From: Sipunculus nudus
Taxonomy: Eukaryota; Annelida; Sipuncula; Golfingiida; Sipunculidae
Assembly (NCBI GenBank): GCA_026874595.1
Contig: CM049311.1
Coordinates: forward strand, 20,086,176 to 20,150,175
Direction: 5' to 3'
DNA: 64,000 nt
The notes beneath the pieces are model-generated. The model ran no database searches and had not been told where the DNA came from. It was given only the letters and a program-made list of their open reading frames with translations. Every line of letters starts with the position of its first letter. Position 1 is the stretch's first letter. This document shows positions 1 through 64,000 of the stretch, piece after piece. The position numbers and the translations under genes were made by a program.

Positions 1-1310
1 ATGTCTGCAGCCTAAATGTGTATGTAGGTTGTGCAACCTACCACAAATCCAGAAAGCTGTCCAAGTTGTATACATATGCAAAATTTTAGGCAGAAAAGTC
101 AAACCACTACATGGATATGAATGATTTTAGCCCACGGCGGACAAACAGACAGACGCTGTGCAAAAATGGTTGCAGTTTTGTGTATGATAAAGACCTATGT
201 GAGATCTAAACACAAGCACAATTTTGGCCCAATCGGTCAAATGGTTCCTGAGATATTAGCTTGGTTGTGTGCAGCGTTAACTAGAATGTAGGTGGCGCCA
301 CCTGTCATAAAATCAAGAAAGCTATCCAGGATGTATAAACCTGCAAAATTTTAGGCAGTTATGTCAAACCACTACAGAGAAATGAGTGATTTCAACAGAC
401 AGACGCTGTGCAAAATGTGCAAAAATGGTTGCAGGTGGCCCCTCCAGTTTTGTGTATGATAAAGACCTATGTGAGATCTATACACATGCAAAATTTTGGC
501 CCAATCGTTCAAACGGTTCCCGAGATATGAGCTTGGATGTCTGCAGCATAAACTAGAATAAAGGTGGCGCCACCTGTCATAAAATCAAGAAAGCTATCCA
601 GGATGTATAAAACTGCAAAATTTTAGGCAGATATGTCAAACCACTGCCAAGATGTGAGTGACTTTATTGCACGGCAGACAAACAGACAGACGCTGTGCAA
701 AAATGGTTGCAGGTGGTGCCACCAGTTTTGTGTATGATAAAGAGCTATGTTAGATCTAGACACATGCAAAATTTTGGCCCGATCGGTCAAACGGTTCCCG
801 AGATATGAGCTTGGATGTCATCAGCGTGAACGTGAATGTAGGTGGTGCCACCTGTCATAAAATCAAGAAAGCTATCCAGGATGTATAAAACTGCAAAATT
901 TTAGGCAGATATGTCAAATCACTGCCGAGATATGAGTGACATTATTGCACGGCAGACAAACAGACAGACGCTGTGCAAAAATGGTTGCAGGTGGCGCCGC
1001 CAGTTTAGCGTATGATAAAGAGCTATGTTAGATCTATATACATGCAAAATTTTGGCCCGATCGGTCAAACGGTTCCCGATATATGAGCTTGGATGTCATC
1101 AGCGTGAATGAGAATGTAGGTGGCGCCACCTGTCATAAAATCAAGAAAGCTATCCAGGATGTATATGCATGCCGAATTTCAGGTGAATTAGTCAATTCAC
1201 TGCAGAGATATGAGTGATTTTAACCAAAGGCAGATGAACAGATGGACACTGTGCAAACATGGTTACAGGTGGCGCCACCATTTTTTGTGTATGTTATAGA
1301 GCTATCCAAG
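1..1310. repeat. Tandem array, family A (about 277-bp monomer)
   Basis: About 4.5 copies of a unit of about 277 bp. The landmark AGGTGGCGCCACCT (a perfect 14-bp palindrome) or a variant, followed by a conserved CATAAAATCAAGAAAGC, recurs near 288, 561, 838 and 1115. Each unit holds a second diverged half with GGTGGCGCCACC, then a TTTTG stretch and an AGAGCTATGT-like segment. The array runs off the left edge. The same family recurs at 38690-40190. It contains no open frame with coding character. Confidence 0.9.
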
Positions 1311-1480
1311 GGCTACATTAGTACAAATTTTATTTCCTGATCAGTCAAACGGTTCCCGAGATATGAGCTTGGAAAGCTGATAAAATCAAGTCCCAGAGGA
1401 GCTCTCTGGAAACGAACGCTGCAACGGCGGAGGAACCCGGTCAAAAACATAGTATCCACAAAACTTCGTTTTGGCGGGTA
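1311..1480. repeat. Family A element 3' tail / A-B junction
   Basis: The stretch after the A array resembles the stretch after the A array at 40190-40310. Both contain ACATAGTATCC, a CAAA run, and GTTTTGGCGG. This suggests an end common to both A arrays rather than random flanking DNA. At 1480 the sequence passes directly into family B monomers. Confidence 0.55.
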
Positions 1481-3780
1481 CAAAAATACAGATGGCTCCA
1501 CCAGTCTGCAGAAACTAATAAAAACACTTACAAATATCAATATCCATGCAAAGAATCATGGTGATCTCCCCATTAGTTGTTCAGATACTTCAGCTTTTGT
1601 ATCAAATTGTCCATTATTCTGAGGGATACTTCAGAGTCCTATAGCTTGAAGGATATGGGTAACAGAGACCTAATTTCAAGTTTCCACAGGCACTTTTCAT
1701 GGGCCTTCTTGCATGACATGAATGAAGAAAAAAAATCGTAAAAATTTGAAAAAAATAGAGGTGGCGCACCCAGTCTGCAGAAACTGATGGAACAGGTCAT
1801 GATCAATATTTATGCCGAAAATCATGACCATCAGTGTTGTAGTTATTGAGATACTGCAGTTTTTGTATCAAATATTCCATTATTCTGGGGGGTAATTTGG
1901 AGCCATACAGCTTATAGAATATGGGTAACAGAGACCTAATTTTAGGTTTCCATGGAGACTTTTCATGGGTCTCCCTGTGTGTCAAGAATGAAGATTCTAG
2001 GTCCAGTTTTAATGATTTGTGCCCTGTTAACAGATGTTCCTAACTTTAAAGGTCTCAAAAATAGAAAAAGAATTTGTAAAAAAACCCGAACAAATACAGG
2101 TGGTGCCACCAGTCTGCAGAAACTGATGAAACACTCCATGATCAATATCCATGAAAACAATTATGGTGATGTCTGCATTAGTTGTTCAGATACTTCAGCT
2201 TTTGTATCAAATTTTCCATTATTCTGAGCTGTACTTTGGAGTGCCATAGCTCAAAGGATATGGGTAACAGAGACCTAATTTCAGGTGTCCATGGAGACTT
2301 ATCATGGGTCTCCCTGTGTGTCAACAATGAAGATTCTAGGTCCAGTCCTTACGATTTGTACCCTGTTGACAGATAACTACATCCTGAAAGGTCTCGAAAA
2401 TAGAGAAAAAAAATTGTGAAAATTTGAAAAAATACAGGTGGCACCACCAGTCTGCAGGTACTGATGAAACACCTCTTGATCAATATGTATGCAAAAAATC
2501 ATGACCATCAGTGTTGTAGTTGTTGAGATGTTGCAGTTTGTTTTTATCAAATTTCCCATTATTCTGGGGGGTTATTGGGAGCCCCCCATAGCTCAAAGGA
2601 TATGGGTAACAGAGACCTTATTTCAGGTTTCCATGCAGACTTTTTATGGACCTCTCAGTGTGTCAAGAATGAAGATTCTAGGTCCAGTCTTTATGATTTG
2701 TGCCCTGTTAACAGCTGTTCACATTTTTAAATTCGTAAAAAATCGAAAAATTCAGGTGGCGCCACCAGTCTGCAGGAAGTGATGGAACATCTCATGATCA
2801 ATACGTATGCCAAAAATCATGACCATCAGTCAAGTAGTAAATGAGATATTGAAGTTTTTGTATGAAATTTTTTACTTTTCTGGGGGGTACTTTGGGGCCC
2901 CATAGCTCGAAGGATATGGGTAACAGAGATCTAATTTATGGTTTCCACGGAGACTTTTAAAAGGTTTCTCAGTGTGTCGAGAATGAAGATTCTAGGTCCA
3001 GCGGTTACGATTTGTGCCACGTTAACAGATGACAGCATCTTTAAACGTCTCAAAAATAGAGGAAAAAATTGTAAAAAAATCGAAAAATACAGGTGGCGCC
3101 ACCAGTCTGCAGGAACTTATGGAACATCTCATGATCAATATGTATGCCAAAAATCATGACCATCAGTGTTGTAGTTATTGAGATATTGAAGTTTTTGTAT
3201 GAATTTTTTTACTATTCTGGGGGGTACTTTGGGGCCCCATAGCTCGAAGGATATGGGTAACAGAGACCTAATTTCTGGTTTCCAAGGAGATTTTTCATGG
3301 ACCTCTCAGTGTATCAAGAATTAAGATTCTAGGTCTAGGCTTTACGATTTGTGCCTTGTTAACAGATGTTCACATTTTTAAAGGTCTCAAAAATAGAGAA
3401 AAAAAATTGTAAAAAATCGAAAAATACAGGTGGCGCCACCAGTCTGCAGAAAGTGATTGAACATCTCATGATCAATATGTGTGCCAAAAATCATGACCAT
3501 CAGTCAAGTAGTTAATGAGATATTGAAGTTTTTGTATGAAATTTTTGACTTTTCTGGGGGGTACTTTAGGGCCCCATAGCTCAAAGGATATGGGTAACAG
3601 AGACCTAATTTCTGGTTTCAAGGAGATTTTTCATGGACCTCTCAGAATCCCAAGTTACAAGGTTCTAGGTTCAGCGGTTACGATTTGTGCCTGGTTAACG
3701 GACGGACAGACGGACAGACGGACGACGGACAAAGAGTGAACGCTATAGCTCAGATGACTTTCAGTCAGCTGAGCTAATAA
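1481..3780. repeat. Minisatellite element, family B (copy 1)
   Basis: About seven monomers of roughly 315-340 bp, each with CAGGTGGCGCCACCAGTCTG or a variant (near 1490, 1757, 2097, 2438, 2755, 3089, 3427), then a CATGATCAATATG-like segment, a GGATATGGGTAACAGAGA segment and an AGGTCCAG segment. After the last monomer come an ACGG/ACAGACGG microsatellite (about 3698-3732) and the tail CTATAGCTCAGATGACTTTC ending in GTCAGCTGAGCTAA near 3778. The 5' end typical of other B copies (TGACCCATGGGTCA) is absent, so this copy is truncated or fused to family A. Confidence 0.85.
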
Positions 3781-4640: not shown

Positions 4641-4689
4641 TTTACATAGTGCGATTTTGTTGCATACGACAGTCGCAAGAAAATCGGAG

Positions 4690-5080: not shown

Positions 5081-5084
5081 GTTA

Positions 5085-10894: not shown

Positions 10895-11740
10895 GAGTCT
10901 TTACTGACTTTGTATTTATTCATAAATCTCCCGAAAACTTCCCATTTGACTCCCCAATATCTATAATCTGCCTTTTTCGCCACCAGATGTCACCTCGAGG
11001 TTAATTATGTAAGTAGGTCTGCAGAAAGGCAATATGGACGTGCACCTCCTATCACTTTCAAAAGGTTAGAGAACCACCGATTTCTTATTTCACATGATTA
11101 TATATTGCATACAGTTTTATCCAACTGACGCCTAATTAAGTCTTAAAAGTCTTAATAAAAGATTTAATTTTCTATGTAATCAAAGACCTTATCAAGATCT
11201 ACTGACATTTTAAAAAAAATGTATGATAGCTATAATTTAATTGATATTTTCTCATATATATCTACCATTGTGCATAATTGGCCCCATTGCATTTCACGCA
11301 GGATAGAGCCGCAAAAAGAGTTTGATATTTTCCTTCACAGGATATTATATTTTCTAAATAAATGATATTGATGGATTATTACATTTGCAATTTTGCATTA
11401 AACGAAAAGGAATGTCTACAAGCACTACACAAATCTTATTTAGCTGAAAAAAATTTACCAGTATCCTTACAGTAATGTTATTTGGTCTGGGTACAACAGT
11501 ATGCATGTATGAACTAAATACCAAAATGAAGTAAAATCTTCTGGCTTGCATCATAATATCATTCATAACACCGACCATACAGGTTTAAGTGAGGTACATG
11601 AAGCGTTTGCATCAATCATGTTTTATGTCGGCAGGAGGTGTGCTAAATATGCCGCCTGGCAGGCAGCTTTTGTCCCATTTAAGCACGCGAGGACCCAGTG
11701 GATATCGCCAGCTTACTGATATATACATATTATAATTGAC
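10895..11740. repeat. Dispersed repeat, copy 1 (partner at 27300-28115)
   Basis: Starting at TTCGCCACCAGATG (10977), the sequence aligns by eye with 27313 onwards, both copies continuing through CAATATGGACGTGCA-type, TAATCAAAGACCTTATCAAG and AAACGAAAAGGAATGT landmarks to a GGACCCAGTGGAT landmark. Copies are about 80-90% alike by eye with small gaps. The 5' part, GAGTCTTTACTGACTT then TATTTATTCATAAATCTCCC (10897-10940), recurs at 18111-18155 instead, so the copies are mosaics. Confidence 0.75.
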
Positions 11741-12574
11741 GGTTGTCCTACATATTTATCAATTACCATTGACTATGATACATACATTCTAACTTTATGT
11801 TCAAAGTAAACATCTCTTATTCATTAATATGGATATTTGTTTGACCACCAAAGACAGAGTTGAATTATTTTGTAAATATACTGATAAAATAGAATGAAGA
11901 TCTGCTAAATAATTTTTACAGATACTATTAGCATAAAACACAGCACTGGTGTACATTACATTGCATGGGATTAACATTAACAAAACATTTATGAAGTGTA
12001 ACTAAACAATAGGAAAGACTGAAGATTAATTCAAACACTGCATTCTTCAGGAATTTTATTTTTTCAATTAAATCTTGTTTGGTATTTTCTCCTAGAAATG
12101 AAAGGCTAACCGGCACATTAAAAGCTTGTAGCATCTCAACAATCTATCAAAAATTAAATTGGCCAAGGTTGTATTTTTATAACAAAAACTTTCCATTTTA
12201 TGCTTATATATAATTTATTACTTTCTACTAGTATCTACATTACCAAAACTGTTAATACAGTTGACAAAAATTAAAAGACAAGGGTATTTTTTCAATAGTT
12301 GATTTAAATCAATAAAAGTCGATTTAAATAAAAATAAGTAAATAAATATTTTTCTCATTATGATTTTGTCTCTGTGTAAGAATGTGTTGAAGAAATATTT
12401 AACTTGTCTGAAATTTCATGTATAAATAAAAATAAATAAAATACGAAATTTCTTATTTTACAGTCCACACTTGAAAAGTTGTTGAAGAACAACAACTTCT
12501 TGATTTGCGGCTTGCATTGAAAGAACCCCAACCAATGTGTTTCGAAAAAAATTCATTAAAAATATGAAACGCTT

Positions 12575-19333: not shown

Positions 19334-20392
19334 AACAAGTGACCCTTGAGTCATGACGCTAAGCCGACTGACATGTTGACAATGTCCTTGCACAGGCGAA
19401 TAATTAAGATTATGAGGGTTCCATTATCATTCATGCATATTAGCTAAAGTTCATTAAGACCCATAAGCACATCTTATTTGATAACAATCCATCCAGCCAT
19501 TCCTCAGAAATATATCAATTTGGTATGGCCGGGTAACAGAGACCAAATTTCAGGATTCAAAGGGGACTTTTCATGGATCACCCTGAATGTCAAGTTAGAA
19601 GATTACAGATCCAGTGGTTTGTGCCCTGGTAACGGAAGACTGCATCTTTAATTAAAGGTCTTATAAATAGAGAAAAAAATCGAAAAAATAAAAAAATATA
19701 GGTGGCGCCACCAGTCTGCAGAAACATATGACACATTCCATGATCAATATCCATGCAAAGAATCATGGTGATCAATGCATTAGTTGTTCTGATACTTGAG
19801 CTTTTATATCAAATTTAGCATTATTCTGGGTGATACTTCGGAGCCCCATTGCTTGAAGGACATAGATAACAGAGACCTAATCTCAGGTTTCCCAGAAGAC
19901 TTTTCGTGGGCCTCCCTGCATGTCAAGAAAGAAGATTCTAGGTCTAGTCGTTAGGATTTGTGTCCTGTTAACAGATGACCAAATCTTTCAAGGTCTCAAA
20001 AAGAGGGGAAAAAATCGTAAAAAGTAAAAAAATACAGGTGGCGCCACTAGTCTGCAGGAACTGATGAAACACTCCATGATCAATATACATGCAAAGAATC
20101 ATGGTGATCAATGCATTAGTTGTTTAGATACTTGAGCTTTTGTATCAGATTTTGCATTATTCTGGGGGGTACTTCGGAGCCCCACAACTGAGAAGTCATG
20201 TGTAACAGAGACCTGATTTTTGGTTTCCAAGGAGATTTTTCATGGACCTCCCAAGATCTGAAATTAAAAGATTCCAGAACCAGCGATTACGATTTGTGCC
20301 TGGTTAACGGACGGACAGACAGACAGACAGACGGACACCGGACAAAGAGTGATCACTATAGCTCAGATGACTTTAAGTCAGCTGAGCTAAAA
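19334..20392. mobile_element. Minisatellite element, family B (copy 2)
   Basis: Left end AACAAGTGACCCTTGAGTCA then GACGCTAAGCCGACTG; right end CTATAGCTCAGATGACTT then AGTCAGCTGAGCTAA. Inside are about 2.5 family B monomers (GGTGGCGCCACCAGTCTGCAG at 19702 and a variant at 20040) and an ACAGACAGACGG microsatellite near 20310-20335. The 5' unique part (19380-19500) differs from that of the 32-kb copy, so left ends are variable or this copy is internally rearranged. Confidence 0.75.
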
Positions 20393-20759
20393 ATTGTATG
20401 TAAACATTTCCTGATTATATGTAGGGATAAACAATGGTATTCAACTCAAATCTGTATGTTAACTGTATGTTGAGGCCCACATTAAATTCAAACCCAATCT
20501 ATAGCCACCTTTTTAGTTACTGCAAGCGTTATAAGTATACAAAATGTGTTCATCCTTAACTAACCCTGGTATTTAACTGATATGTCGAGGCCAATATATA
20601 ATTCAAACACTTTCAGGCCACTTCATTGTGTTACTATTAGCTTGATATAAAGAGTATATACATTAGGCTTTTGACAGAAATTTATATCATAGTATTTCTC
20701 AGAGCACAGTTACAATATAGTTTATACAAAAAAACAGTTCAGTAATCTAGACACCCAGA

Positions 20760-20915
20760 ATTTGCACTGTCTGCATGTGAAGTTTGGACTCTCTGGGTCT
20801 TGCTATTGCGATTTGTGCCCTTTAGTTAACGGATGGACAGAGTGAAGGACAGACAGATGACAGAGGACAAAGACCCATTGCTATAGCTCAGAAGACTTTC
20901 AGTCATCTGAGCTAA
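20760..20915. mobile_element. Family B 3'-end fragment
   Basis: GCGATTTGTGCCC, then GTTAACGGATGGACAGA, a degraded ACAGACAGATGACAGAGG microsatellite and CTATAGCTCAGAAGACTTTC to TCATCTGAGCTAA. No full monomer remains. Confidence 0.7.
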
Positions 20916-20953
20916 AATGTAACTTTGCATCATGACTTAGCCATGATGAATTA

Positions 20954-21619: not shown

Positions 21620-21810
21620 GGAACGAAGTCACAGAGACCTAGTTTTTGGCTTGGTAGGAGATCCTTGGGACATCTAACATTATGGCGAATTTTGGATTCG
21701 TAGGTCTAATGGTTTCAAAACGTGCCAGTCTAACGGACGGACGGACAACCGACGGACAATGGATCATGACTAAAGCTCTGATGACTAATAGTCAGCTGAG
21801 CAAAAAAATG
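21620..21810. mobile_element. Family B-like 3'-end fragment
   Basis: Begins near CACAGAGACCTAG and ends with CTAACGGACGGACGGACAA, CTCTGATGACTAATAGTCAG and CTGAGC. This is a diverged version of the family B tail in which the CTATAG core is altered to CTAAAG. Confidence 0.6.
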
Positions 21811-22049
21811 ACTTTCTAGATATTAGTGCAAGACATAAGATGTACCAGTTTCAAAAGGATTCATGCAAAACTGTGGCTTGTAGATTCCTACATGTAAGAA
21901 GCAAGCACCAGCAAGCAGGCAAAATTGAGGACAACTGACAATAAGACAGACCCACTGACAAGGGGACACAAGGTTGAGAGCAGATGACTCAACCAAAATA
22001 TGCAGAAGAGGCATATATATGATCATAATCATATATATAATCATAGCAG

Positions 22050-22672
22050 TTATATGATTTGTGCCTTGTAACAGATGACCACATATTTGAAGGTCTCAAA
22101 AATAGAGAAAAGAAATTCGTAAAAATCGAAAAGATACAGGTGGTGAAACCAGTCTGCAGAACCTGATGAAACACCCCATGATCAATAAGCAAGCAAAGAA
22201 TCATGGTGATCAATGCATTAGTTGTCCGGATAGTTGAGCTGTGGTATCAAATTTTCAATATTCTGGGGGGTACTTCGGTGCCAATTGCTTGGAGGTTATA
22301 AGTAACAGAGACCTGATTTCTGGTTTCGTGGACCTCTCTGGATTTCAAGTTAGAAGATTCTAGGTCCGCTTATTTAAAGGTCTCTTTAAAGAATCTTGCT
22401 GATCAATGCTACTGGAGCTTTTGTATCAAATTTTCCATTTTTCTGGGGGGGGGGAGTACTTCGGAGCCCCATAGCTCGGAGGTTATGAGTAACACAGACC
22501 TGATTTCTGGGCCTACCTGGATGTCAAGTTAGAAGATTCCAGGTCCAGCGGTTACGATTTGTGCCTGGTTAACGGAAGGACAGACGGACAGACAGACAGA
22601 CGGGCGGACAGACGGACGCCTAACAAAGAGTGATCGCTATAGCTCAGATGACTTTCAGTCAGCTGAACTAAA
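22050..22672. mobile_element. Minisatellite element, family B (copy 3, 5'-truncated)
   Basis: About 1.5 diverged monomers (GGTGGTGAAACCAGTCTGCAG at 22140; GGGGGGTACTTCGG at 22264 and GGGGGGGGAGTACTTCGG near 22446), then an ACGG/ACAG microsatellite about 22575-22615 and a canonical tail GTGATCGCTATAGCTCAG at 22630 to GCTGAACTAA. Confidence 0.75.
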
Positions 22673-22797
22673 AAATACTGTATTTCCGTAAATCTGACCT
22701 TGAAAATCAAGTTCAAGGTCACCAATTAACTTTTTTAAACATCAAAGGAAGTCTTGTAAATATATATTGCTCAAGCAGATTTTTTATAACTAATGCC

Positions 22798-25790: not shown

Positions 25791-26224
25791 GAGTGATCAT
25801 GAGTGATATGTTTTTACTCTGTAAATGCCATATTAAATCCTCCTTTATCTTTCGGGCTTTACATAAAGTTTCAATTTAATTGGTCCGTGCTTTCATTCCA
25901 TATAAAAAGAAACATACTTGAGTTTATTTTGAAGTGCTTGGAAAAACAGTCATCACTCATATTAATCGGGCACTAAACTGTGATTTTAACCATACATGTT
26001 TTCATATCATCTCTTGCCAGTTGTTTGTTACTGTAATGCCCACTACCAATAATGGTTGACCTATCCATTTTATTGCAAGTATGCTGATTTCGTTATACCT
26101 TAATCCTAGTGGTTTAATATTTTTTTTTCTTTACTTATTCTTAAAACTGACATGTGATAATTATCATATAGTTCTCAAATAACAAATAATGACATATCAT
26201 TTGCTTATTATCCCCTTTTTTTAA

Positions 26225-27060: not shown

Positions 27061-27299
27061 TGTCGCCCTTGTTAATTTATTGTGTAGGCCTACTCTTTTC
27101 CAGAATATTTAAATCCTTTAATAAACATGTTCGTGTGTTTCTGCCTGTAATAAAACTTTTCTCTCACAAATTAGACACTCAAAGTTTTTTTTCAAGAATG
27201 CCACATTTAGACACCGTTTGTCATGTGAGCCACTTTTGTTGACATAGACAACTGTTATACTTTATAAAGTCATAAAATTTGCTGCCCCCAATAAGATGC

Positions 27300-28115: not shown

Positions 28116-28129
28116 TAATTGACTTTGGT

Positions 28130-33336: not shown

Positions 33337-33458
33337 AAAAATGTAGTCACAGTCGTATCCACGTGAGGTATGTAGACTGAGAAGAAATACAATAGATTTT
33401 CCATTGAAATTATTTGAATTTACATCACTTCACAAAGAAAGGTCACACTGACCGAAAG

Positions 33459-36444: not shown

Positions 36445-37787
36445 GAAAAACTAGATGTGGTCGGACAATGGTCCTCAGAGGGCCCAGCGTTCCTGCTAGT
36501 GCTGGACTAGTTTACTTATGGGTGAAAAATAAAGTTAAGTTTGAAATATATGACAAACAGAAACAGGTTTTTATCCATATTCATGAGGGAAAAACCCTAC
36601 TGGAACAAATGATATTAAAGAAGATATGTCTGAAATAATGTTTGCAATAGAAAATCACCGAATGTAGTGTGGTAGCCATATTTGATTTTGAGCAAGTCTG
36701 TAATTCAGTAAGTCTGCAGCCCTCATAGGCACCAATGATCCCTGTGGAATTGGGAAAGCTGCAGTAGGTTGCTGTTGAGTTATTGCATGTAAAAGAAAAT
36801 CTGCGATCAGGCTGTGGCGGCCATATTGCAATTCCAACAGGTCTGTAATTCAATAGGTCTTGAGCCCTTACATGTACCAACCATCCCTGTAAATTTGGGA
36901 AAGCTGAAGTATGTTGTTGTTGAGTTATCGTGCGCGATATAACAGCGAAAGGGCTGTGACGGCCATAATGGAATTCAGACAGGTCTGTAATTCAATAGGT
37001 CTGGAGCCCTCATAGGTACCAATCATTCCTGTGAATTTGGGAAAGCAGCAGTAGGTTGTTGTTGAGTTATCGTGCGCGAAAAAAATCAGCGAATTGGTTT
37101 TGGCGGCCATATTGTAATTCAGATAAATCTGTTATTCAATAGGTCTGGAGCCCTCATAGGTACCGATCATCCCTGTGAATTTGTAAAAGCTGCAGTAGGT
37201 TGTTGTTGAGTTATCGCGCGCTAAAGAAAATCAGTGAGTGGGCTGTGACGGCCATATTGGAATTCAGAAAAATCTGTTATTCTAAAGGTCTGGAGCCTTC
37301 ATAGGTACCAATCATGTATGTGAATTTGGGAAAGCTGCAGTAGGTTGTTTTTGAATTATTGCGTGCGAAAGAAAATCAGCGATGGGGATGTGGCAGTCAT
37401 ATTGGAATTCCGACAGGTCTGTAATTCAATAGTCTAGAGCCCTCATAGGTACCAATCATCCCTGTGAATTATAGAAAGCTGCAATATGTTGCTGTTGAGT
37501 TATCGCCCGCGAAAGAAATCAGTTAATGGGCTGTGGCAGCCATATTGGAATTCCGACAAGTCCGTATTCGATAGGTCTGAAGCCCTCGTAGGCACCAATC
37601 ATCCCTGTGAATTCGGGAAAGCTGCAGTATGTTGTTTTTGAGTTATCGCCCGTGAAAGAAAGTGTCACTGACGGAAGGACGAAAGTACGGAAGGACGGAT
37701 GGACAGACGGACGGGTGGATGGAAGGACGGACTGACACGGTGATCACTATAGGGCACTGCTTTTCAAGCGGGGCCCTTATAAAAAGG
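36445..37787. mobile_element. Minisatellite element, family C (about 143-bp monomer), copy 1
   Basis: Left end AAACTAGATGTGGTCGGACA then TGGTCCTCAGAGGGCCC. Seven monomers carry GTCTGTAATTCAATAGGTCT, CATAGGTACCAATCATCCCT and GGGAAAGCTGCAGTAGGTTG at spacings of 140-147 bp. Then come a GGAAGGACGGA/ACGG microsatellite (about 37670-37735) and the tail CACGGTGATCACTATAGGGC to GGGGCCCTTAT. A second copy lies at 56984-57807. Short minus-strand open frames are periodic and artefactual. Confidence 0.9.
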
Positions 37788-37870: not shown

Positions 37871-38395
37871 GAACAAGTGACCCATGGGTCATGACGCTCA
37901 GCTGACTTGGAAGAGATTTGCAAAAGGAAATTTTATCATCTGAATGGTAGTATATAACCATTCAACTGAAGCATCAAACAGATTAACCAACAGGCTGAGA
38001 TTGTGTCTGTATTAATATATCTCAAAAATAGAGAAAATATGCGTAAACTTTAAAAAAAAATACAAGTGGCTCCACCAGTCTGCAGAAACTAATAAAAACA
38101 CTTAATGGTCAATATCCATGCAAAGAAGCACGGTGGTCTCTGGATTAGTTGTTCAGATACTTCAGCTTTTGTATCAAATTTTCCATTATTCTGAGGGATA
38201 CTTTTGAGTCATATAGCTTAAAGGATATGGGTACGGAGACCTAATTTCAGGTTTCCACAGACACCTTTAATGGGCCTCCTTGCATGACAAGAATGAAGAT
38301 TCTAGGTCCAGTTGTTACAATTTGTACCCTGTTGACAGATAACCACATCTTTAAAGGTCTCAAAATAGAGAAAATTATTCGTAAAAATTTAAAAA
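37871..38395. mobile_element. Family B element, 5' part (copy 4)
   Basis: Left end GAACAAGTGACCCATGGGTC then ATGACGCTCAGCTGACTTGG. It is followed by the same unique region as the 32-kb copy (TGAATGGTAGTATATAACC; CAACTGAAGCATCAAACAG) and 1.5 monomers. The match stops near 38395 at AAAAACAAGGCC; the microsatellite and tail are missing. Confidence 0.8.
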
Positions 38396-38689
38396 CAAGG
38401 CCTACAGGCCTAATGCGAACCTGTGCAAAGATTGGGAGTATGAATGGAGGTTTATTTTTTAAATTTAGTATTGATCCTCTTAAGTCCTGCATATCTACCT
38501 TAGTCATTATGATTTCAGCAAAATGGATGTTTCGGACCTGCAAGTTTCAGACTAGGACATTTTAAAACTAGAATATGGGTAGTCAACAAGCGACTATGTG
38601 TATCCGCAGAAATCAGAGTGGGACGGGTGAAGTGAGGCATGGATTAAGTGGCAAGGGGAAAAGAGTGAGGTGTGTTGCATATTAGCATG
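38396..38689. other. Unique spacer
   Basis: Begins with the palindrome AGGCCTACAGGCCT-like AAGGCCTACAGGCCTAA. No coding signal; short open frames lie on both strands. It separates a truncated family B copy from the family A array. Confidence 0.4.
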
Positions 38690-40190
38690 GATGTCTGTAG
38701 TGTAAACATGAATGTAGGTGGTGCCACCTGTCATAAAATCGAGAAAATTGTCCAGGATGTATAAACCTGCAAAGTTTCAGGCGGATAAGTAAAACCACTG
38801 CTGAGATATGAGTGATTTTATCCCAAGGCAGATGAACAGATGGATGCTGTGCATAAGTGGTTGCAGGTGGTGCTACCAGTTTTCCCTATGATGAAGAGCT
38901 ATATTAGATCTATACACAAGCAGAATTTTGGCCCAATCGGTCAAACGGTTCCCGAGATATGAGATTGGATGTCTGCAGAGTAACCTGAATGTAGGTGGCG
39001 CCACCTGTCATAAAATCAAGAGAACTGTCCAGGATGTATTAACCTGCAAAATTTCAGGCGGATAAGTCAAACCACTTCTGAGATATGAGTGATTTTATCC
39101 CGAGACAGATGAACAGATGGACGCTGTGCATAAATGGTTGCAGGTGGCGCCACCATTTTTGCCTATGTAAAGAGCTATGTGAGATCTATACACAAGCAAA
39201 ATTTTGGCCCAATTGGTCAAACGGTTCCCGAGATATGAGTTTGGATGTCTGCAGAGTAAACCTGAATGTAGGTGGCGCCACCTGTCATAAAATCAAGACA
39301 GCTGTCCAGGATGTATAAACCTGCAAAATTTCAGGCGGATAAGTCAAACCACTTCTGAGATATGAGTGATTTTATCCCAAGGCAGATGAACAGATGGACG
39401 CTGTGCATAAATGGTTGCAGGTGGCGCCACCAGTTTTGCCTATGTAAAGAGCTATGTGAGATCTATACACAAGCAAAATTTTGGCCCAATAGGTCAAACG
39501 GTTCCCGAGATATGAGCTTGGATGTCTGTAGAGTAAACCTTAATGTAGGTGGCGCTACCTGTCATAAAATCAAGAAAGCTGTCCAGGATGAATAAACCTG
39601 CAAAATTTCAGGTGGAAAAGTCAAACCACTGCTGAGAAATGGGTGATTTTATCCCAAGGCAGATGAACAGATGGACGCTGTGCATAAATGGTTGCAGGTG
39701 GCGCCACCAGTTTTGCCTATGTAAAGAGCTATGTGAGATCTATACACAAGCAAAATTTTGGCCCAATAGGTCAAACGGTTCCCGAGATATGAGCTTGGAT
39801 GTCTGCAGAGTAAACCTGAATGTAGGTGGTGCCACCTGTCATAAAATCAAGAAAGCTGTCCAGGATGTATACACCTGCAAAATTTCAGGTGGAAAAGTCA
39901 AACCACTGCTGAGAAATGAGTGATTTTATCCCAAGGCAGATGACTAGATGGATGCTGCGCAAAAATGGTTCCAGGTGGCGCCACCATTTTTTGTGTATGT
40001 TATAAAGCTATCAAAGGGCTACATTTGTGAAAAAAATTTTAAGCCTGATCGGTCAAACAGTTCCCGAGATATGTGGGTTTATGTGTGGAAACAGACGCAC
40101 AAATGGACGCTGGGCAGAGAGGAAAGGTCAGAGGTAAACCAAAAATCGAGGGCGCAGCTGTTCACATGTGACTGATCATAATTCGGAATT
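38690..40190. repeat. Tandem array, family A (copy 2)
   Basis: Five to six 276-277-bp monomers with AGGTGGCGCCACCTGTCATA or a variant at 38714, 38990, 39267, 39544 and 39821. Copies at 39085-39923 are about 97% alike by eye, much more homogeneous than the array at 1-1310, so expansion or homogenisation was recent. Each unit yields a near-identical 77-codon open frame, but the unit length is not a multiple of three, so these lie in three different frames and are artefacts. Confidence 0.9.
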
Positions 40191-40430
40191 TTTAAAAATT
40201 CTGCCCAGTGGTTATGGAGGAGTTCTCCTGAAACCTATGCGGCGATGGGGGCAGCGTCAGCGTCCGACTGAAACATAGTATCCGCAAACTCTGTTTTGGC
40301 GGATACAATGATTGTAGCTGACACCACCAGTCTTTTATACAACTAAGAGATATATAAATATGCCCAATGTCAGACTGATATGTCAAACTCCTCCTGTGAA
40401 ATAAGCAGGGACATACACTGTGCAAAAATT
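40191..40430. repeat. Family A element 3' tail (copy 2)
   Basis: Contains TGAAACATAGTATCCGCAAA and CTGTTTTGGCGGATACA, matching 1455-1485 after the first A array. Confidence 0.5.
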
Positions 40431-40960
40431 ATTGTAGGTGGCGCCACCAGTCTTGTACACTATACAGCTCCCCGATATGTATAAACATGCCCAATTTTAG
40501 GCTGATGTATCAAATTCCTTTGTAGAAATAAGCAGGCGCATACACTGCAAAAGTCAAAGTAGGTGGCACCACCTGTCATGTAAATAAGAATACCATCAAA
40601 GACGCATAGACAGATCAAAATATCAGTCCAATACATAAAACTTCCCCAGAGTTTGATGCACTGGGCTGACAAGGCTTAGGTGAGTAAGGCAGTTGCCCCC
40701 GAGTGACCTGTGACAAATTGCTGCCTCAAGCTACTGCACTGAGTGAATTCTTGACCTGCACCTGGCTAGACTGAGTGAACTTTTGACCTGTACCTAGCTG
40801 CACTGAGTGAACTCTTGACCTATTATATAATCTGACACAGTTGGCAGTCTGCCAAAGCTATAAATAGATTCAGGCTGAACTTTTGTGCCAAATATGATGC
40901 AGTGAGCAGTCTTCCAAAGCTATAAATAGAATGCAGCTACTGCACTGAGTGAACTCTTGA
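40431..40960. repeat. Dispersed repeat, family E (copy 1)
   Basis: TAGGTGGCGCCACCAGTCTTG at 40436 and a variant at 40560 precede GGCAGTTGCCCC, ACTGAGTGAACTCTTGACCT (several times) and TCTGCCAAAGCTATAAATAG (twice, about 80 bp apart). A shorter copy is at 56025-56370. Confidence 0.7.
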
Positions 40961-41489
40961 CCTCTACCTGGCTGCATTTCTTCCAATCCTGGCACTGTGC
41001 CAAAACTATCATAGAGCTGACATCATCTTGGCTAATGGCCAACATCAAGGCACTGGCAATCTGCCAATGGTAAACCCAGTGCTGCCATCTGTACACAAAA
41101 GTGGTCCCTACTTGAAATAACTTTGAAATTTATTTTCCCAATACAAAATGCCTTTCAGCTGACTTTTAATAAAAAAGAAATCAGGAATATATGTAAATTT
41201 ATTACGGATGCTTACTGAATGCAAAATTAAAATGAATAAAGTTGAGTAGGGATACCAATAATTTATAATCCATGTACAGTTGTCTTTATATAGCCACAGA
41301 GAGCTGAATATTCTTGATTGTAACATTGCCTGGTATGATGAATAACTTAAATCACATATCTAAATTTTTTAAAAGCTTTTAAAAAAATTTCTTGTCAATA
41401 TTAACCAAAGTAACCTGAAATCTAAATGTCTAGTGGCATGATGTAATAGATGCTGATAAACTGGTGCCAGGCTAGATGTAACAGCATAA

Positions 41490-42550
41490 CACAGCTAACA
41501 TATATGGTAAAATGACTCAATTCAATCTCCATAATTCAGCCAAAAATCATTCATGTTGAACCATTAATGACAATTATTATAAGAATTATTGTAGGGATTA
41601 TTCTTGTAAAATATTTAACGAACTGGCTTCAGTGGCATCAGTCGAAAAACGTTTCGCAGGTTTATAACTCACATAGGAAGATACAGCAAACTGGCTAAGT
41701 TCAGCTTCCCATAACTCAGCCAAAAAGCACTGAACCAAAACCATTTGAACAAACTTAAATAATCAACATCTGAGGATAATTAATGTGTGAGATTTAAGTA
41801 TTTGGCCCAGTGGTTTTTGAGAAGAAGATCTTTGTAGCCACTGAGCTTAAATGGGCTGTTTTGGCATATGACTAAATTCAGCTTCCCATAACTTGGCCAA
41901 AAGTCACTGAAAAGAGACCATTTGAACAAACTTCAAAAAGCACTACCCTAGGATCATTTCTGTGCAATATTAAACATTTTGGCCATATGGTTTCAGAGAA
42001 GAAGTTTCTTGTAGCCCTCAGTGTGATACAGGCACTGATGACCCCGTACAAAAAAAGGCCGATGCAGGTGGCGCCACCAATACCTCAATTTCAGATATGA
42101 CCTATGTGACCAACATTGGCATAAAGTTTGGTGATGATAGCTCCAGCCGCTTCTGAGATTAAATTTAATATGCTTTTTTGCACAGTTAACAAAGTTCAAC
42201 CTCCTGTAACTCGGCCAAAAATCTCCAAACTGGAACCATTCGAACAAACTTGAAAAAGATTGTTCCAGGGATCATTTCTGTGAAATATTGGACAATTTGG
42301 CTAGACAGTTTCGGAGAAGAAGATTTTTAAAGCTTTTTTTAGCTTTTTCCCTATAAAATCTAAGAAAATGCAGTTAGAAAAAAATAAACAAAATCCGATA
42401 TAGTTTTTTTGGATGACCGATTATTTGCAAAAATATTGGTGATGCTAGCTCCTGCCGTTTTTGAGATAGCTATGGTTAACGTACAGACGATGCATGGCGC
42501 ACGACACACGACGGACGACGCCGCACAATCGCATAAGCTCACAGGTTTGC
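41490..42550. mobile_element. Minisatellite element, family F (about 178-bp monomer), copy 1
   Basis: Monomers carry CAGCTTCCCATAACTCAGCC variants near 41523, 41702, 41880 and 42199, with CCATTTGAACAAACTT and GGTTTTTGAGAAGAAG segments. One unit includes CAGGTGGCGCCACCAAT (42065). The end has GGTTAACGTACAGACGATGC, then ACACGACGGACGACG and CATAAGCTCA, which resembles the microsatellite-plus-tail ends of the other families. A partial copy is at 59225-59654. Confidence 0.8.
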
Positions 42551-43890
42551 CAAAAAAAAAAAAAAAAACAGAGGTGGCACACCCAGTCTGCTAAAACTGA
42601 TGGAACATCTCATGATCAATATGTATGCCAAAAATCATGAGCACCAGTATTGTAGTTGAGATACTGGAGTTCTTGTATCAAATTTTTCATTATTCTTAGG
42701 GGTATTTTGGAGCCATACAGCTTAATGGATATGGGTAACAGAGACCTAATTTCAGGTTTCCATGGTGATTTTTCATGGGTCTCCCTGTGTGTAAAGAATG
42801 AAGATTCTAGGTCCAGTTGTTACGATTTGTGCCATGTTTACAGATGTTCACATCTTTAAAGGTCTCAAAAATAGAGAAAAAATTTCGAAAAAAAAGCCCG
42901 GAAAAATATATGTGGTGCCACCAGGCTGCAGAAATTGATGAAACACTCCATGATCAATATCCATTAAAACAATTATGGTGATCTCTGCATTAGTTGTTCA
43001 GATACTTCAGCTTTTGTATCAAATTTTCCATTATTCTGAGCTGTACTTTGGAGTGCCATAGCTCAAAGGATATGGGTAACAGAGACCTAATTTCAGGTTT
43101 CCATGGACACTTTTCATAGGTCTCCCTGTGTGTCAAGATTGAAGATTCTTGGTCCAATTCGAACCCTGTTGACAGATAACTACATCCTTAAAGGTCTCAA
43201 AAATAGAGAAAAAAATTGTAAAAATTTGAAAAATACAGGTGGCGCCACCAGTCTGCAGAAACTGATGAAAATTCTCAAGATCAATATGTATGCCAAAAAT
43301 CATGACTATCAATGATGTAGTTAATCAGATATTGAAGATTTTTTATGAAATTTTTTACTATTCTGGGTGGTTCTTCGGGGCCCCATAGCTCGAAGGATAT
43401 GGGTAACAAAGACCTAATTTCTGGTTTCCATGAAGACTTTTCATAGGTCTCTCGGGATGTCAAGAATGAAGATTCTAGGTCCAGTTTTTACGATTTGTGC
43501 CCTGTTAACAGATGCTCACATTTTTAAAGGTCTCAATAATAGAGAAAACAATTCATAAAATATCAAAAAATACAGGTGGCGCCACCAGTATGCAGAAACT
43601 GATGAAACATCTCATGATGAATATGTATGCCAAAAATCATGACCATCAGTGATGTAGTTAATGAGATATTTAAGTTTTTGTATGAAATTTTTGACTATTC
43701 TGGGGGGTACTTTGGGGCCCCATAGCTCGAAGGATATGGGTAACAGAGACCTAATTCCAGGTTTTCTAGGAGATTTTTCATGTGGTTACAATTTGTGCCC
43801 TGTTAACGGACAGACGGCCGGATGGCCGGACGGACGACGGACAAAGAGTGATCGCTATAGCTCAGATGACTTACAGTCAGCTGAGCTAAA
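42551..43890. mobile_element. Minisatellite element, family B (copy 5, 5'-truncated)
   Basis: Starts after an A17 run (42552-42568). About four monomers (near 42572, 42912, 43238, 43575), an ACGGACAGACGG-type microsatellite with GGCCGGATGGCCGG variation near 43808-43845, and the tail GTGATCGCTATAGCTCAG (43848) to GTCAGCTGAGCTAA (about 43889). It abuts the family F end directly. Confidence 0.85.
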
Positions 43891-44400
43891 AATCAGGATT
43901 CTTGTCATGTTCAAGTATGTTACGTGTCTTGTAATATCGCAGAAAATCGCAGGCGAAAAATAACGAAAATTATTTTTATTTTGAACCCTTACTTCTCGTT
44001 AGGTGTCGTGCTGTGGTCTTTGCATAGCGCACAACTCTGATACAATTTTATATTGTAATTCATATTACTTGATTTTTATACTAATTTTATATTTTTGCGG
44101 AGATGAACCATGTTGCTAAAGATAAGGCTGATTTCATGAGTAGAAGTATAGTCATGGTTATTTTGAAGCCTGTTGTAATTTTGTTAAGGAACAGATTATT
44201 GGACCCTTTCACTTGGGACGGAGGCCACATTTTCAAGACATGCAATTATAAAGTCCGTTCCACCAACCGTGAAATACTGTTTTTTTACGTTTTCTTTTCT
44301 ACCTTGATATATAATCTGTGTTCTTAGCGATACGAGGAATGCCAAGAAAACGACCTAATTTTATATGAAGTTAGTGATAATGTATAAAAAACAACTTACA

Positions 44401-48183: not shown

Positions 48184-48225
48184 AAACAAATGACCCATGG
48201 GTCATGACGCTCAACTAATGTTCAA
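48184..48225 (-). mobile_element. Family B 5' terminus fragment
   Basis: AACAAATGACCCATGGGTCA then GACGCTCAACTAATG is the left end of family B with the 14-bp palindrome TGACCCATGGGTCA intact. No monomer follows. It sits directly against the splice acceptor of the CTLD3 first-half exon. Confidence 0.75.
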
Positions 48226-56983: not shown

Positions 56984-57807
56984 AAACTAGATGTGGTCGG
57001 ACAATGGTCCTCAAAGGGCCCCGTTTACATAAAGGTGAAAAGTTAAGTTAAATTTGAAAAATATCACAAACAGAAAGAGATTTTTATCAATATGCATGAG
57101 GGAAAAATCATACTGGATTAAAGAAGATAATAATGTCTGAAATAATGTGTGCAATAGAAAATCACCGAATATAGTGTGTTAGCCATATTTGATTTTGAGC
57201 AAGTCTGTAATTCAATAGGTCCGGAGCCCTCATAGGTAACAATCATCCCTGTGAATTTGGGAAAGCTACAGTAGGTTGTTGTTGAATTATTGCGCGTGTA
57301 AGAAAATCAGCGGTCGGGCTGTGGCGGCCATATTGGAATTCCGACAGGTCTGTTATTTAATAGGTCTAGAGCCCTTATAAGTACCACCATCCCTGTGAAT
57401 TTTGGAAAGCTGCAGTATGTTGTTGTTGAGTTATCCTGTGCGAAAGAAAATCAGCGTTTGGGCTGTGGCGGCCATATTTGAATTCTGACAAGTCTGTAAT
57501 ACGACAGGTCTGGAGCCGTCATAGGTACCAATCATCCCTGTGAATTTGGGAAAGCTGCAGTAAGTTGTTGAGTTTTTGCATGCAAAGGAAAATCAGCGAT
57601 TGGGTTATGGGAGCCATATTTGAATTCCGACAAGTCTGTAATTCGATAGGTCTGGAGCCAGTCATAGGTACCAGTCATCCCTGTGAATTTGGGAAAGCTG
57701 CAGTATGTTGTTGTTGAGTTATCGCGTGCGAAAGAAAGTGTCACTGAAGGAAGGACGGACTGACACGGTGATCACTATAGGGCACCGCTTGTAAAGGGGG
57801 CCCTAAT
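56984..57807. mobile_element. Minisatellite element, family C (copy 2)
   Basis: Left end AAACTAGATGTGGTCGGACA then TGGTCCTCAAAGGGCCCC. Four 141-148-bp monomers follow (GGGAAAGCTGCAGTA variants near 57264, 57405, 57549, 57697), then a short GAAGGAAGGACGGA stretch and the tail CACGGTGATCACTATAGGGC to GGGGGCCCTAATTA. Both ends match the copy at 36445-37787, which fixes the element's limits. Confidence 0.9.
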
Positions 57808-58275
57808 TACGAGGTTATGCCCGTAAAAACAGGACGATGTAGACAGCACCAGACATGGGGTGATTACTTGATATATGTAATCGTTTACGATTATTTTAAA
57901 AGGAAATGATTACGAATATGATTACGATTATCATCATAATTTTATGTATAAAAAAAGTAATCATGATTACAGACATGATTACATACCTTGATATTGCCAA
58001 AATCCAGCATAAGAAGAATTGTATACTATACTTTTATTCAAATGCATCAAAGGAACAAAAACTTGTGCAAAGCATTGAAAGAGTAGTTAGTCTCATCGAG
58101 ATATGAAATAGATGAAATAGTTTGAAGCAATTATTAACATCACTTCAAATGCTTGTTGCACTTCATTGTTGATTTGCTCATATATACATGAGGGTGTTGT
58201 TGCTGAGTGTTTTAATGCTCCAGAGCTCTTGAGTGGGCCAGAAACCGCCCCCTGGCTGCGGGGTCTGCAGCCAAT

Positions 58276-59890: not shown

Positions 59891-59892
59891 TT

Positions 59893-60429: not shown

Positions 60430-61045
60430 AACCCAATTACAGTTTGTTCATTGTCAGTGATATTTGCACTGACATATTATTTGCAGTGAAAATCATTCAC
60501 TGCATCTGGCTTTCACTGTCAGTATTATTTGCAGTGACACATACTTGCAGTGAAATCATTCACTGCATTTGGCTTTCATTGTCAGTGATATTTGCACTGA
60601 CATATACTTGCAGTGAAATCATTCATTGCATTTGGCTTTCACTGCCAGTGATATTTACATTGACATATACTTGCAGTGAAAATCATTCACTGCATTTGAC
60701 TTTCATTGTCAGTGATATTTGCAGTGACACATACTTGCAGTGAAATCATTCACTGCATTTGGCTTTCACTGTCAGTGATATTTACACTGACATACACTTG
60801 CATTGAAAATCATTCACTGCATTTGGGTTTCACTGTCAGTGATATTTGCACTGACATATACTTGCAGTGAAAATCATTCACTGCATTTGGCTTTCATTGT
60901 CAGTGATATTTGCACTGACATATACTTGCAGTGAAAATAATTCACTGCATTTGGCTTTCATTGTCAGTGATATCTGCACTGACATATACTTGCAGTGCAA
61001 TACACATTCACTGTCAGTGGTCCATTCACTGCCATTTACTTACAG
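60430..61045. repeat. 64-bp minisatellite with nested inverted repeats, about 9 copies
   Basis: Units spaced 63-66 bp (60451, 60516, 60579, 60643, 60708, 60771, 60836, 60900, 60963) read TGTCAGTGATATTTGCACTG, ACATATACTTGCAGTGAAA and ATCATTCACTGCATTTGGC. Each unit holds two imperfect hairpins: GTCAGTG...CACTGAC and CAGTGAA...TTCACTG. A repetitive open frame (60444-60743) follows the units and is not a gene. It lies between the candidate LTR and the Gag frame. Confidence 0.9.
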
Positions 61046-62057
61046 TGACCAGACCTCGCTGTAAGTAGCTACAGTTGTAAGTGCTTTATATTTAAGCGAG
61101 TTGCTCAGACTTTTAACTAGTCAGTCTGTGCAGCTCATAGTCTATATTTAAGCTGTGTTTTATTACTGTGCCCTTGCTACACCACACCTTGTCACAACTA
61201 ATCCAGAAAAACAAGTAACAGTAATAATATAATAGTACAGCATTGTCTCATGACTTAAGCATCAAGGTATTTCCCTACCAGTTTTCATTACTTTCAGTTA
61301 TAAACTTACTACACTTATCATTGAGGGTTGCAAGTTGCTGTAACTTTAAGTGATTGGCGTACTACCTTGATAACTAAGCACATTTCTATTGACTTTATTT
61401 TCTGTAAGCTCCCAAAGCTTGCAGTGTCTTTGTAGTACATTAAAGATCCCCTAGCTGTCAGTGAGCTGCTCACTGAGCCATACTCAAACATACTCATATA
61501 TTTATTGTGCCCCTTAGCCTTTTAATGCAGGTCACTTAGTTTGGCACTAATTTTTTTGGAAGTCCCTAATACATAGGGCTCACCTGAAGTCATTTTGTCT
61601 AATAGATTAATCACATTAACCCTTCAGTATATTAATTTTTTGCAGTTTTGTGCAAAAGTTTTCTCTTTCATTAAACTTGGAGCCTGCATTTATTTGTTTA
61701 TGTCTAAGTCACCTCTGCCTGTTATATCTATACTGTGCTCATGTCATTACAGTATATAATCTCATTGTTCATATGGCTTGGTGCTTAAGCTTATCAGTTG
61801 CATATCTTTTATATATGTCACATATATGCGTGAACAGTTGGTACAGCTGAAAACTTTACCTGTCCCAGCTCACTAAGCTACTAACCTTATATAATTTCAG
61901 TTTCATATTTGGCTTATTAAAACAGTTATTTACAGTTTCTAGTAAGCCCTGCTCTTTGTTTACTTTCTTCACCTTGCATTAAAAAATAAAGGGGGCGAGT
62001 GAAGGAAGGAAGCAGGAGTGATTGCTATAGCCTGTTGTACTCACTTATTGTTAAAGA
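61046..62057. other. Putative untranslated leader of the LTR element
   Basis: No coding signal. Near its end, GTGAAGGAAGGAAGCAGGAG then GTGATTGCTATAG (62018-62030) copies the microsatellite-plus-tail pattern of families B and C, 28 bp before the Gag start. This suggests a nested minisatellite element or capture of its end. Confidence 0.4.
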
Positions 62058-64000
62058 ATGGCTAGTCATAAGCAGTTAGATGTTTGTAAGGCGTCAGCCA
62101 GACAGATGGCTGAACATCTGCCTGATATTCTTACTAAAGACTCCGCCAAAGAGATCATCCTGTTACGAGATGAAAACCCAGATTTTGGTCCAGACGATCT
62201 AGAAGGTGTGACTGGAGTTTTGGCTGCAACATGGCTCCAGCTCGTCCAAGAGGGGAGACTGCATTTCTCAAATACAGAACAAAGATCTGAAATCCAAGAG
62301 GACGACAGTGCTCCAGCAGATGTGGACATAAATGGGAAAGCCCATAGTGATCCAGAAATCAGTCAGCTGTTACGAGCCCATCCCAAACAAGGAGTGTATA
62401 GGGGGAATGTTACAAAAAACAGAAGTAAACCCGTAGGCTATGACAGTACCTCAAACACCATCCAGGATATAGCCGATACGTTTCCATCATCTGCCATATT
62501 GGCACCAAATGCACCTAACCGACGTAGACATTTGGGCTCAGTCAGCGCAGCATCTAATTCAACGATGGGCTACTCATGCCACTCAGACGAGGAGGGTAAC
62601 CATCTCACTATCCATGATGTCCCCAGCCAATCTCCACATCGTGAACTTCCTCATAGGAGGCCAAGATTGGCATTAGTCACAAGTCGCACAGCAACAAGAC
62701 ACCGTGACCCAAGCCAATATCTGGATGCATGCCCCTGTCATGATCAAGACCCATATTATCATAGCTATGATGTGCCCCCATTTCAGGTGCAACGGATACC
62801 AGACAGGGACAATCTGCATGTTCGAGACAGGGAACCAACTTCCTGGGAGATGAGACATAGTCACAAAACCATGAGACACTCAAGGTCTGGGCAATCGAGG
62901 GAGCAAATACCGAGGCGTCATGTGGAATATCTCCCTGTAGAGGATCACAGGTCTAGGAGTCGCAAACAATCAGGAAGACGGCGGAGGGATCATGGAAACT
63001 CAAGCACGTCAGAGAGTTCAGATAGTTCAAGTGATCGTGAATACAGATGTCTGAAGAGAAAGCACACTAAGCACCGCCATCATTGCTCCAGTTCAGATAG
63101 CTCAGAGGAGAGACATGGTGGTCATCACAGGGCCCACACAGGTCGCTCTTGTAGCCCCCAGGCGCCAAAGTTAATAACCTTCTCTGGCGGCGAGAACACC
63201 AACTGGGACAGCTTTATTTACCAATTCAGCAGGTATGCAGAACGGTATGGATGGTCCAGTCGTAAACGTGCAGAACGCCTTCTAGACTGCCTTTCTGGTA
63301 AAGCACTAGACTATGTGAGGGAACTTAGGCTGGACTCAGACTACCGAACCTTGAACCGCAAGCTAAGTCAGCGTTTTGGAATTAGTGAGGCCCCCATCAC
63401 TGTTCGTAGGGAGTTACAGTATTTGAAACAGGAGGAAAGGCAAACGTTAGAGGAGTTTGGCCAGAAGGTCCTATTTCAAGTCATGAACGGCTTCCCCGGA
63501 GCAAAAGAATCCACTATGGAGCAAATAGCGGTCGAGTACTTCCTGAAAGGTTGCCTCGACAAAAAGGCAGCAGCCACAGCTATGTGCAGAAACCCATCAA
63601 AGGTACACAAAGCGGTGCAATATGTCAAAGATGCTGCTAACAACTATAAGGCAATTTATGGCAAGTCATCACTGCCAGTCCGCAGGGTAAGTTTCCACAG
63701 TCATCCAGACTCGGAGGAGGAGACCAGCCATTCAGTCAGAGCCACGAGTGTAAGGGATGCTCCCAACTTTGAGTCAGCTAGAATCAGTGAATCAACAGGC
63801 AGTTCTGGATTTGAGATGAGAATGAACAAACGAATGGAAAAAATGAACGAGCAATTCAATGAAAGGATGAGCCGTTTAGAATCTATGCTGCAAACGTTGA
63901 TGGAACCATCAAGGTCAAGATCTAGGTCACCAAGTTACAGTCGTTCACCCCAGAGACCTGAAGAAACAGTTTGTTTTAAATTCCACCAAAAGGGCCATTT
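62058..64000 (+). CDS. Gag-like polyprotein of a Ty3/gypsy-type LTR retrotransposon (3' partial)
   Basis: An intact frame of 647 codons runs from an ATG at 62058 to the window edge without a stop; it is by far the longest in the window and has balanced codon use. Residues 1-80 are acidic and helical. About 200-365 are very rich in Arg, His, Ser and Asp (an RS-like tract with SSTSESSDSSSD near 315-325). About 370-540 form the capsid-type retrotransposon Gag domain, starting APKLITFSGGENTNWDSFIY, with LLDCLSGKALDYVREL and LKQEERQTLEEFGQKV blocks. About 590-615 is a Met/Glu coiled coil (MEKMNEQFNERMSRLESM), then an RSRSRSPS stretch. The final codons begin a CCHC zinc knuckle, but the second expected Cys is Phe (CFKF). 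The start is the first Met after an in-frame stop. Pol would lie beyond the window. The reading-frame integrity suggests a young copy. Confidence 0.85.
   Translation, partial: MASHKQLDVCKASARQMAEHLPDILTKDSAKEIILLRDENPDFGPDDLEGVTGVLAATWLQLVQEGRLHFSNTEQRSEIQEDDSAPADVDINGKAHSDPEISQLLRAHPKQGVYRGNVTKNRSKPVGYDSTSNTIQDIADTFPSSAILAPNAPNRRRHLGSVSAASNSTMGYSCHSDEEGNHLTIHDVPSQSPHRELPHRRPRLALVTSRTATRHRDPSQYLDACPCHDQDPYYHSYDVPPFQVQRIPDRDNLHVRDREPTSWEMRHSHKTMRHSRSGQSREQIPRRHVEYLPVEDHRSRSRKQSGRRRRDHGNSSTSESSDSSSDREYRCLKRKHTKHRHHCSSSDSSEERHGGHHRAHTGRSCSPQAPKLITFSGGENTNWDSFIYQFSRYAERYGWSSRKRAERLLDCLSGKALDYVRELRLDSDYRTLNRKLSQRFGISEAPITVRRELQYLKQEERQTLEEFGQKVLFQVMNGFPGAKESTMEQIAVEYFLKGCLDKKAAATAMCRNPSKVHKAVQYVKDAANNYKAIYGKSSLPVRRVSFHSHPDSEEETSHSVRATSVRDAPNFESARISESTGSSGFEMRMNKRMEKMNEQFNERMSRLESMLQTLMEPSRSRSRSPSYSRSPQRPEETVCFKFHQKGH

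Follow-up and report, generated by a model that had tools for sequence, protein, structure and literature searches.

Helentrons and their non-autonomous derivatives, HINEs, have been described as elements with subterminal inverted repeats (subTIRs) and a 3' palindrome that insert at a TT target without duplicating it, and whose coding members carry a PIF1 helicase, an endonuclease domain and a Rep motif with S (PMC4067079). In the oyster Crassostrea gigas, Cg_HINE elements combine a left subTIR, a complementary inverted repeat, a GTCY-type microsatellite and central tandem arrays, sometimes two consecutive ones, with a right 3' subTIR and palindrome and a T-rich target, and one of their groups (group 2) has related flanks around unrelated arrays (PMC7492417). 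A comparable layout is found in DINE-1 of Drosophila, which possesses 13 bp subTIRs, a partial inverted repeat, a conserved core, a GTCY microsatellite, central repeats and a 3' stem-loop (PMC2374699). Short internal arrays between conserved ends have also been described for the bivalve Pearl elements CvA, CvE and CvG (via PMC7492417, PMC5139131 and PMC11136912), and conserved end boxes common to elements with different arrays for C. gigas Helitrons (PMC8268682). Here, we analysed a stretch of 64,000 nucleotides from the annelid Sipunculus nudus (GCA_026874595.1, contig CM049311.1, positions 20,086,176 to 20,150,175; hereafter the window), and propose that three array-bearing families within it, named B, C and G, are very probably minus-strand HINEs that were moved by Helentrons and, in the case of B, have a coding relative with the same 3' end.

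Read on the minus strand, a B element opens with TTTT and the subTIR AGCTCAGCTGACT, followed by the inverted repeat of the latter, CTATAGYGATCAC, a GTCY-type microsatellite and the array, after which come the 3' subTIR, GACCCATGGGTC and CTTGTT. Family C follows the same plan with another subTIR, and its right end holds just a short GGAC/GTCC stem (4 bp); in both families the right terminus consists of an inverted subTIR, a palindrome or short stem, and CTTGTT or CTAGTT. Three features of the HINE description have counterparts here. A left subTIR of 11-15 bp with an adjacent complementary inverted repeat was found at eight hairpins folded in the window and in 31 of 37 sampled B copies, a 3' subTIR followed by a palindrome lies near the right terminus at the B and C right ends of the window, and the target is T-rich and not duplicated, as seen from an A-run beside the B end and from an A-tract at one empty site. 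The 13-nucleotide motif GTGATCRCTATAG had been taken in an earlier note on this window for a 3' tail common to several minisatellite families. Because this motif, read on the other strand, belongs to the HINE left end, it marks instead the 5' end of minus-strand elements. Since the architecture has already been published for oysters, B, C and G are new members of it. The likeness to Cg_HINE is one of description and not of letters, with monomers of 138-181 bp there versus about 337 bp in B; those to DINE-1, the Pearl elements and the C. gigas end boxes are likewise descriptive. The arrays are larger here than in the Helentrons and HINEs of PMC4067079.

In the source genome (1.43 Gb in 153 contigs), the motif occurs in 10,744 exact copies versus 43 for the reversed pattern used as control, representing an excess of about 250-fold. 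Its C-type extension has 833 copies (control 2), and the motif followed by A or T has 345 (control 33). The far ends are similarly abundant, with 9,307 copies of a 19-mer from the B 3' end and 5,960 of a 22-mer from the G 3' end, neither of which had a control match. In the window, ten matches to the 13-mer with up to two mismatches were found, a number reached by none of 100 shuffles (mean 2.11). The 13-mer is therefore commoner than expected at both scales. Seven of the ten matches are element ends, five of B and two of C (motif positions in Table 1), and the other three lie at 6380 (minus strand), 59053 and 62018. Folding gave a hairpin beside CTATAG at all eight ends folded (six B, including the site at 20877, and two C), with energies from −7.6 to −12.5 kcal/mol and a fraction of equally good shuffles between 0 and 0.017. 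By contrast, no hairpin formed at 62018, 59053 or 6380(−), where 0.34 to 0.88 of shuffles did as well, and these three were rejected as chance matches. Because it lacks a hairpin, the match at 62018, which had been linked to the start of a Gag gene, is probably fortuitous. The list of tail sites given in the earlier note is thereby retained for the seven B and C ends (its 3745 being 3736 here), corrected at 20877, a B end that keeps CTATAG only, and shortened by 62018. Seven matches to a 17-mer in viral contigs were set aside as unrelated because all share one near-identical context unlike that of the elements. Searching paper texts for six variants of the motif returned papers that were unrelated as judged by title.

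The 5 kb around each of 40 motif copies was inspected, these being the first listed on contig C1 with a close neighbour (736416, in the same stretch as 736042) left out. The motif lies between an ACGG-like stretch and a B- or C-type inverted-repeat sequence in all 40 copies, which bears out the tetranucleotide run reported before the motif, although this stretch is very short in some copies (L043, for example) and the inverted-repeat sequence is reduced to its first bases in others (L030, L049, L054). An intact end, including the far hairpin arm, is present in the 31 B copies mentioned above. Past CTGAGCTA, A occupies the first four positions in 31, 26, 28 and 30 of these copies, respectively, and from the fifth base onward the four letters are about equally frequent, as at random. 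Because four A's are followed by random letters, the distance from the motif to the end of B is constant. These results support the view that the motif marks a fixed end of modular mobile elements. Near-duplicate copies such as L049 and L050, which lie about 19 kb apart, and the local clustering of G ends could be explained if the arrays had spread like ordinary satellites or through segmental duplication instead of by transposition; this alternative is nevertheless hardly credible given fixed termini followed by unrelated flanks in 31 sampled copies and a nested insertion with its empty site.

The earlier note had further reasoned that the tail is the recognition site of a single mobility machinery and that monomers are interchangeable passengers. 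That the motif is common to B and C, which have different subTIRs and whose monomers show no BLAST similarity at E 0.05 (in agreement with the note), and that composites of B with a further array, E, exist are both compatible with a stand-alone tail behind which monomers are freely exchanged. However, the array adjoining the exact motif is B in 37 and C in three of the 40 sampled copies, and array type tracks subTIR type in every one of them. The additional monomer types anticipated in the note were absent from this sample, the outcome it had itself named as speaking against its proposal. Moreover, the elements possess two defined ends: among 100 motifs listed, four of them C-type, 38 have a same-strand B 3' end no more than 8 kb upstream and one has a B 3' end there on the opposite strand, compared with six and three, respectively, downstream. 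Free exchange is thus improbable, while the fixed terminus, the modular layout and the sharing of the motif by B and C stand; a single machinery for both families is a conjecture. Some elements sit directly head to tail, a B end adjoining the 3' end of a G element at L017 and that of another B element at L031.

Composite and nested elements bear on the same question. An E array is found behind the B array in several sampled elements, and seven of eight B-E junctions in the sampled loci share one position, down to the base, within a single B monomer variant (L030 is the exception). In the window, the join at the E end 1452-1481 is identical to this common junction, while other sequence follows the E end at 40278-40306, inside the G element. 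Because the junction sits mostly at one B monomer position, the majority of B-E copies probably go back to a single fusion that was subsequently copied, which again argues against free exchange of monomers. The G element in turn sits within a B monomer of a two-ended B element (Table 1). Joining the two G flanks restores a B monomer, 305 of 309 bases being aligned with other B arrays and gaps occurring only in an A-tract, and thus provides an empty site for the insertion.

A further alternative is that the elements are canonical Helitrons, or miniature inverted-repeat elements (MITEs) belonging to some other class of transposon. The genome does contain a Rep motif of canonical type, with L (L057). 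However, the features of canonical Helitrons, namely a 5' TC, a CTAG-type 3' end and insertion between A and T, were not found at these elements, which show a T-run with a subTIR and CTTGTT or CTAGTT instead; the bat Helitron Helraiser, for comparison, has TC and CTAG ends (PMC5876387). Insertion into a T-run and the Helentron-type S of the Rep linked to B (below) argue in the same direction, leaving this explanation only the slightest probability. As for a transposase gene within the elements, the window contains none of the 143 genome matches listed for the Helitron_like_N profile, for which 150 of 195 candidates were scored.

In the Cg_HINE study, no coding Helentron could be linked to the elements described (PMC7492417). 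Here, a coding element with a B end was found at C17:35630192, where a frame of 2,342 codons contains Helitron_like_N and PIF1 domains and the Rep motif EFQQRGSPHIH, with the S that serves as the Helentron criterion in PMC4067079. About 1 kb past its stop codon lies a B 3' terminus with 85.7-97.4% identity over 30-49 bp to B ends of the window and the sample (BLAST). Copies on contigs C5 and C10, inspected at the site predicted from the Rep domain, are 98.7% identical to that on C17 over 546 and 530 bp, respectively, up to CTTGTT, with a single change in the palindrome of the C10 copy, and past CTTGTT the flanks of all three differ, indicating that the coding element ends in a B 3' terminus in each of the three copies examined. 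Upstream of the gene on C17, there are two diverged B-type 5' ends, accompanied by microsatellites and B monomers, as well as an E module mostly 68-78% identical to the modules of B-E elements. On the simplest reading of these sequences, B elements would be derivatives of the C17 Helentron lineage, and it is this lineage that presumably moved the B copies.

Several observations weigh against this picture. The B-type 5' side of the coding Helentron is known from one copy, that on C17, where the two motifs are 3 and 1 mismatches off and none is exact, and about 3.4 kb of unassigned sequence separates the B monomers from the E module. Because of these three features, HINEs could have inserted by chance beside the C17 gene, the coding partner of B being another element. 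The abundance of B ends in the genome, the presence of two B-type 5' ends upstream of a single gene with unassigned sequence between, and the additional B-like 3' end that the C10 copy carries 45 bp beyond the first are in line with such insertions. By contrast, they leave unexplained that the 3' terminus stands at the same place in the C17, C5 and C10 copies, with homology ending there and different flanks following, and that the gene is likewise preceded by the E module found in B-E elements. We therefore regard chance insertion as unlikely and descent of B from the C17 lineage as the better account. The endonuclease of this element also departs from the published Helentrons, its match being below the Pfam cut-off with a further piece in another frame. 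A second Helentron family, on contigs C7 and C11, does combine a Helentron-type Rep motif with an Exo_endo_phos domain, and no B end was seen in 10 kb read on its upstream side and 9 kb on its downstream side, within which the ends of the element were not reached. Finally, the 40 sampled loci, being the first on one contig, are not a random sample of the motif copies. Downstream of the C7 gene, repeated units of about 1 kb that are some 72% alike were noticed (L066, L068). With a coding Helentron carrying a B 3' terminus now named by place, its partnership with HINEs becomes testable.

For Helraiser, the left end has been reported to be crucial, the right hairpin to act as a terminator, and one strand to be transposed (PMC5876387). 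By analogy, recognition probably takes place at the left end of B and C elements, with its hairpin and motif, and the short motif, retained by two families whose subTIRs differ, is a candidate for such a role. In the mechanism we propose, the Helentron Rep/helicase would bind and nick the left end, one strand would be peeled off through rolling-circle replication, and the right-end palindrome would terminate the process. The freed strand would then be joined into a T-run without target duplication, with the arrays carried along.

All ten recognised 5' ends of B, C and G elements in the window lie on one strand, and only a tentative element of family D is opposite. We asked how far such co-orientation extends on C1, using B and G elements of its first 13 Mb; these data concern one region and two families, and neighbouring pairs are not independent. 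B and G elements are co-oriented over about 200 kb, with the direction flipping between neighbouring stretches. The 3' ends of G cluster by strand (24 runs versus 49.8 expected), still so after thinning to 100 kb (16 versus 25.0, p 0.006) and no longer significantly after thinning to 200 kb (14 versus 18.0, p 0.11), while B alone is not strand-clustered after thinning to 100 kb (p 0.15 and 0.25). Between families, G and the B 13-mer lie on the same strand in 54 of 69 pairs 20-50 kb apart, in 78 of 98 pairs 50-100 kb apart and in 132 of 167 pairs 100-200 kb apart, as compared with 56-60% from 300 kb to 2 Mb (46-60% with B 3' ends). When only the nearest G at 10-200 kb was considered, 51 of 67 B 13-mers and 54 of 70 B 3' ends had it on their own strand, an agreement not attained in any of 63 circular shifts. 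In a comparison by blocks, the majority strands of B and G coincided in 28 of 32 at a block size of 200 kb, in 19 of 24 at 300 kb, in 17 of 19 at 400 kb, in 15 of 18 at 500 kb and in 8 of 9 at 1 Mb. When G elements lying 10 kb or less from a B end were left out, the strands agreed in 20 of 24 blocks at 200 kb (p 0.0015), and in 15 of 21 at 300 kb and 10 of 14 at 500 kb, neither of which is significant. Family C, with seven elements, shows no clear co-orientation (23 of 39 C-B and 9 of 26 C-G pairs). A tRNA-like short interspersed element (SINE, a label given here) was used as a control. Of its 902 copies, 11 are on the first 14 Mb of C1, and pairs at 10-200 kb agreed in 24 of 36 cases with B and 10 of 13 with G, too few elements for the control to speak for or against a strand effect shared by all repeats.

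One reading of these patterns is that Helentron insertions are oriented by chromosomal domain, the transposed strand being joined preferentially to one template strand of the replication fork. We consider this a tentative suggestion that is more apt to fail than to hold. There is a precedent in bacteria, where the orientation of IS200/IS605 elements follows replication (PMC5371812), and among the papers listed in literature searches, titles and abstract openings contained no report of replication-linked orientation for Helitrons. Base composition of the flanks (40 loci, 98.6 kb partly masked) gave a GC skew of +0.041 (interval 0.007 to 0.077) and a TA skew of −0.039. This skew was set aside as evidence on orientation because the nine minus-strand loci give a GC skew of −0.007 and other repeats were unmasked. 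If the suggestion is true, the orientation of Helentron elements would record replication direction as it does for IS200/IS605, and if co-orientation holds in further regions and families, it could offer a record, readable from sequence only, of replication direction or of another strand asymmetry.

The elements of the window are collected in Table 1, where G is a label given in this analysis, independently of the family G of the earlier note.

Table 1. Helentron-related features of the window (positions within the 64,000 nucleotides; motif, GTGATCRCTATAG)
Feature	Positions	Strand	Remarks
E module, ~277 bp monomers	1-1481	−	cut by window edge; 5'-end-like hairpin 1452-1481 adjoins B array
B array (337 bp monomers), microsatellite, 5' end	1482-3780	−	motif 3736-3748, 1 mismatch
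B element, both ends	19334-20393	−	motif 20349-20361
B 5' end, only CTATAG of motif kept (20881-20886)	20806-20917	−	
Diverged B 5' end	21733-21810	−	
B fragment with 5' end	22045-22675	−	motif 22630-22642
Family D, 145 bp repeats, tentatively HINE-like	26215-27062	+	ends by eye only
B element, both ends	32096-33340	−	motif 33295-33307, 1 mismatch
C element (~145 bp monomers), both ends	36449-37782	−	motif 37740-37752
B element, both ends, split by nested G	37872-43892	−	motif 43848-43860
Nested G-type element, own ends	38394-42551	−	E module 38679-40306; 127 bp and 177 bp repeats inside
B-like 3' end without recognised 5' end	48185-48216	−	
C element, both ends	56985-57808	−	motif 57768-57780

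The 17-mer from the 3' end of family D has three exact genome copies only. A 12 bp palindrome, GGTGGCGCCACC, is common to B, E and 127 bp monomers, which otherwise show no relation to one another (at 291, 1760, 38994 and 43238, for example), and, allowing up to two mismatches, occurs at 39 sites between 291 and 56073, compared with none for the reversed control. An unclassified repeat of about 800 bp is present at 10966-11755 and 27303-28138 with 71% identity and was not seen in the other loci read. Lastly, a tandem array of about nine copies of a 64 bp unit occupies 60447-61013, upstream of the region that the earlier note had assigned to Gag.

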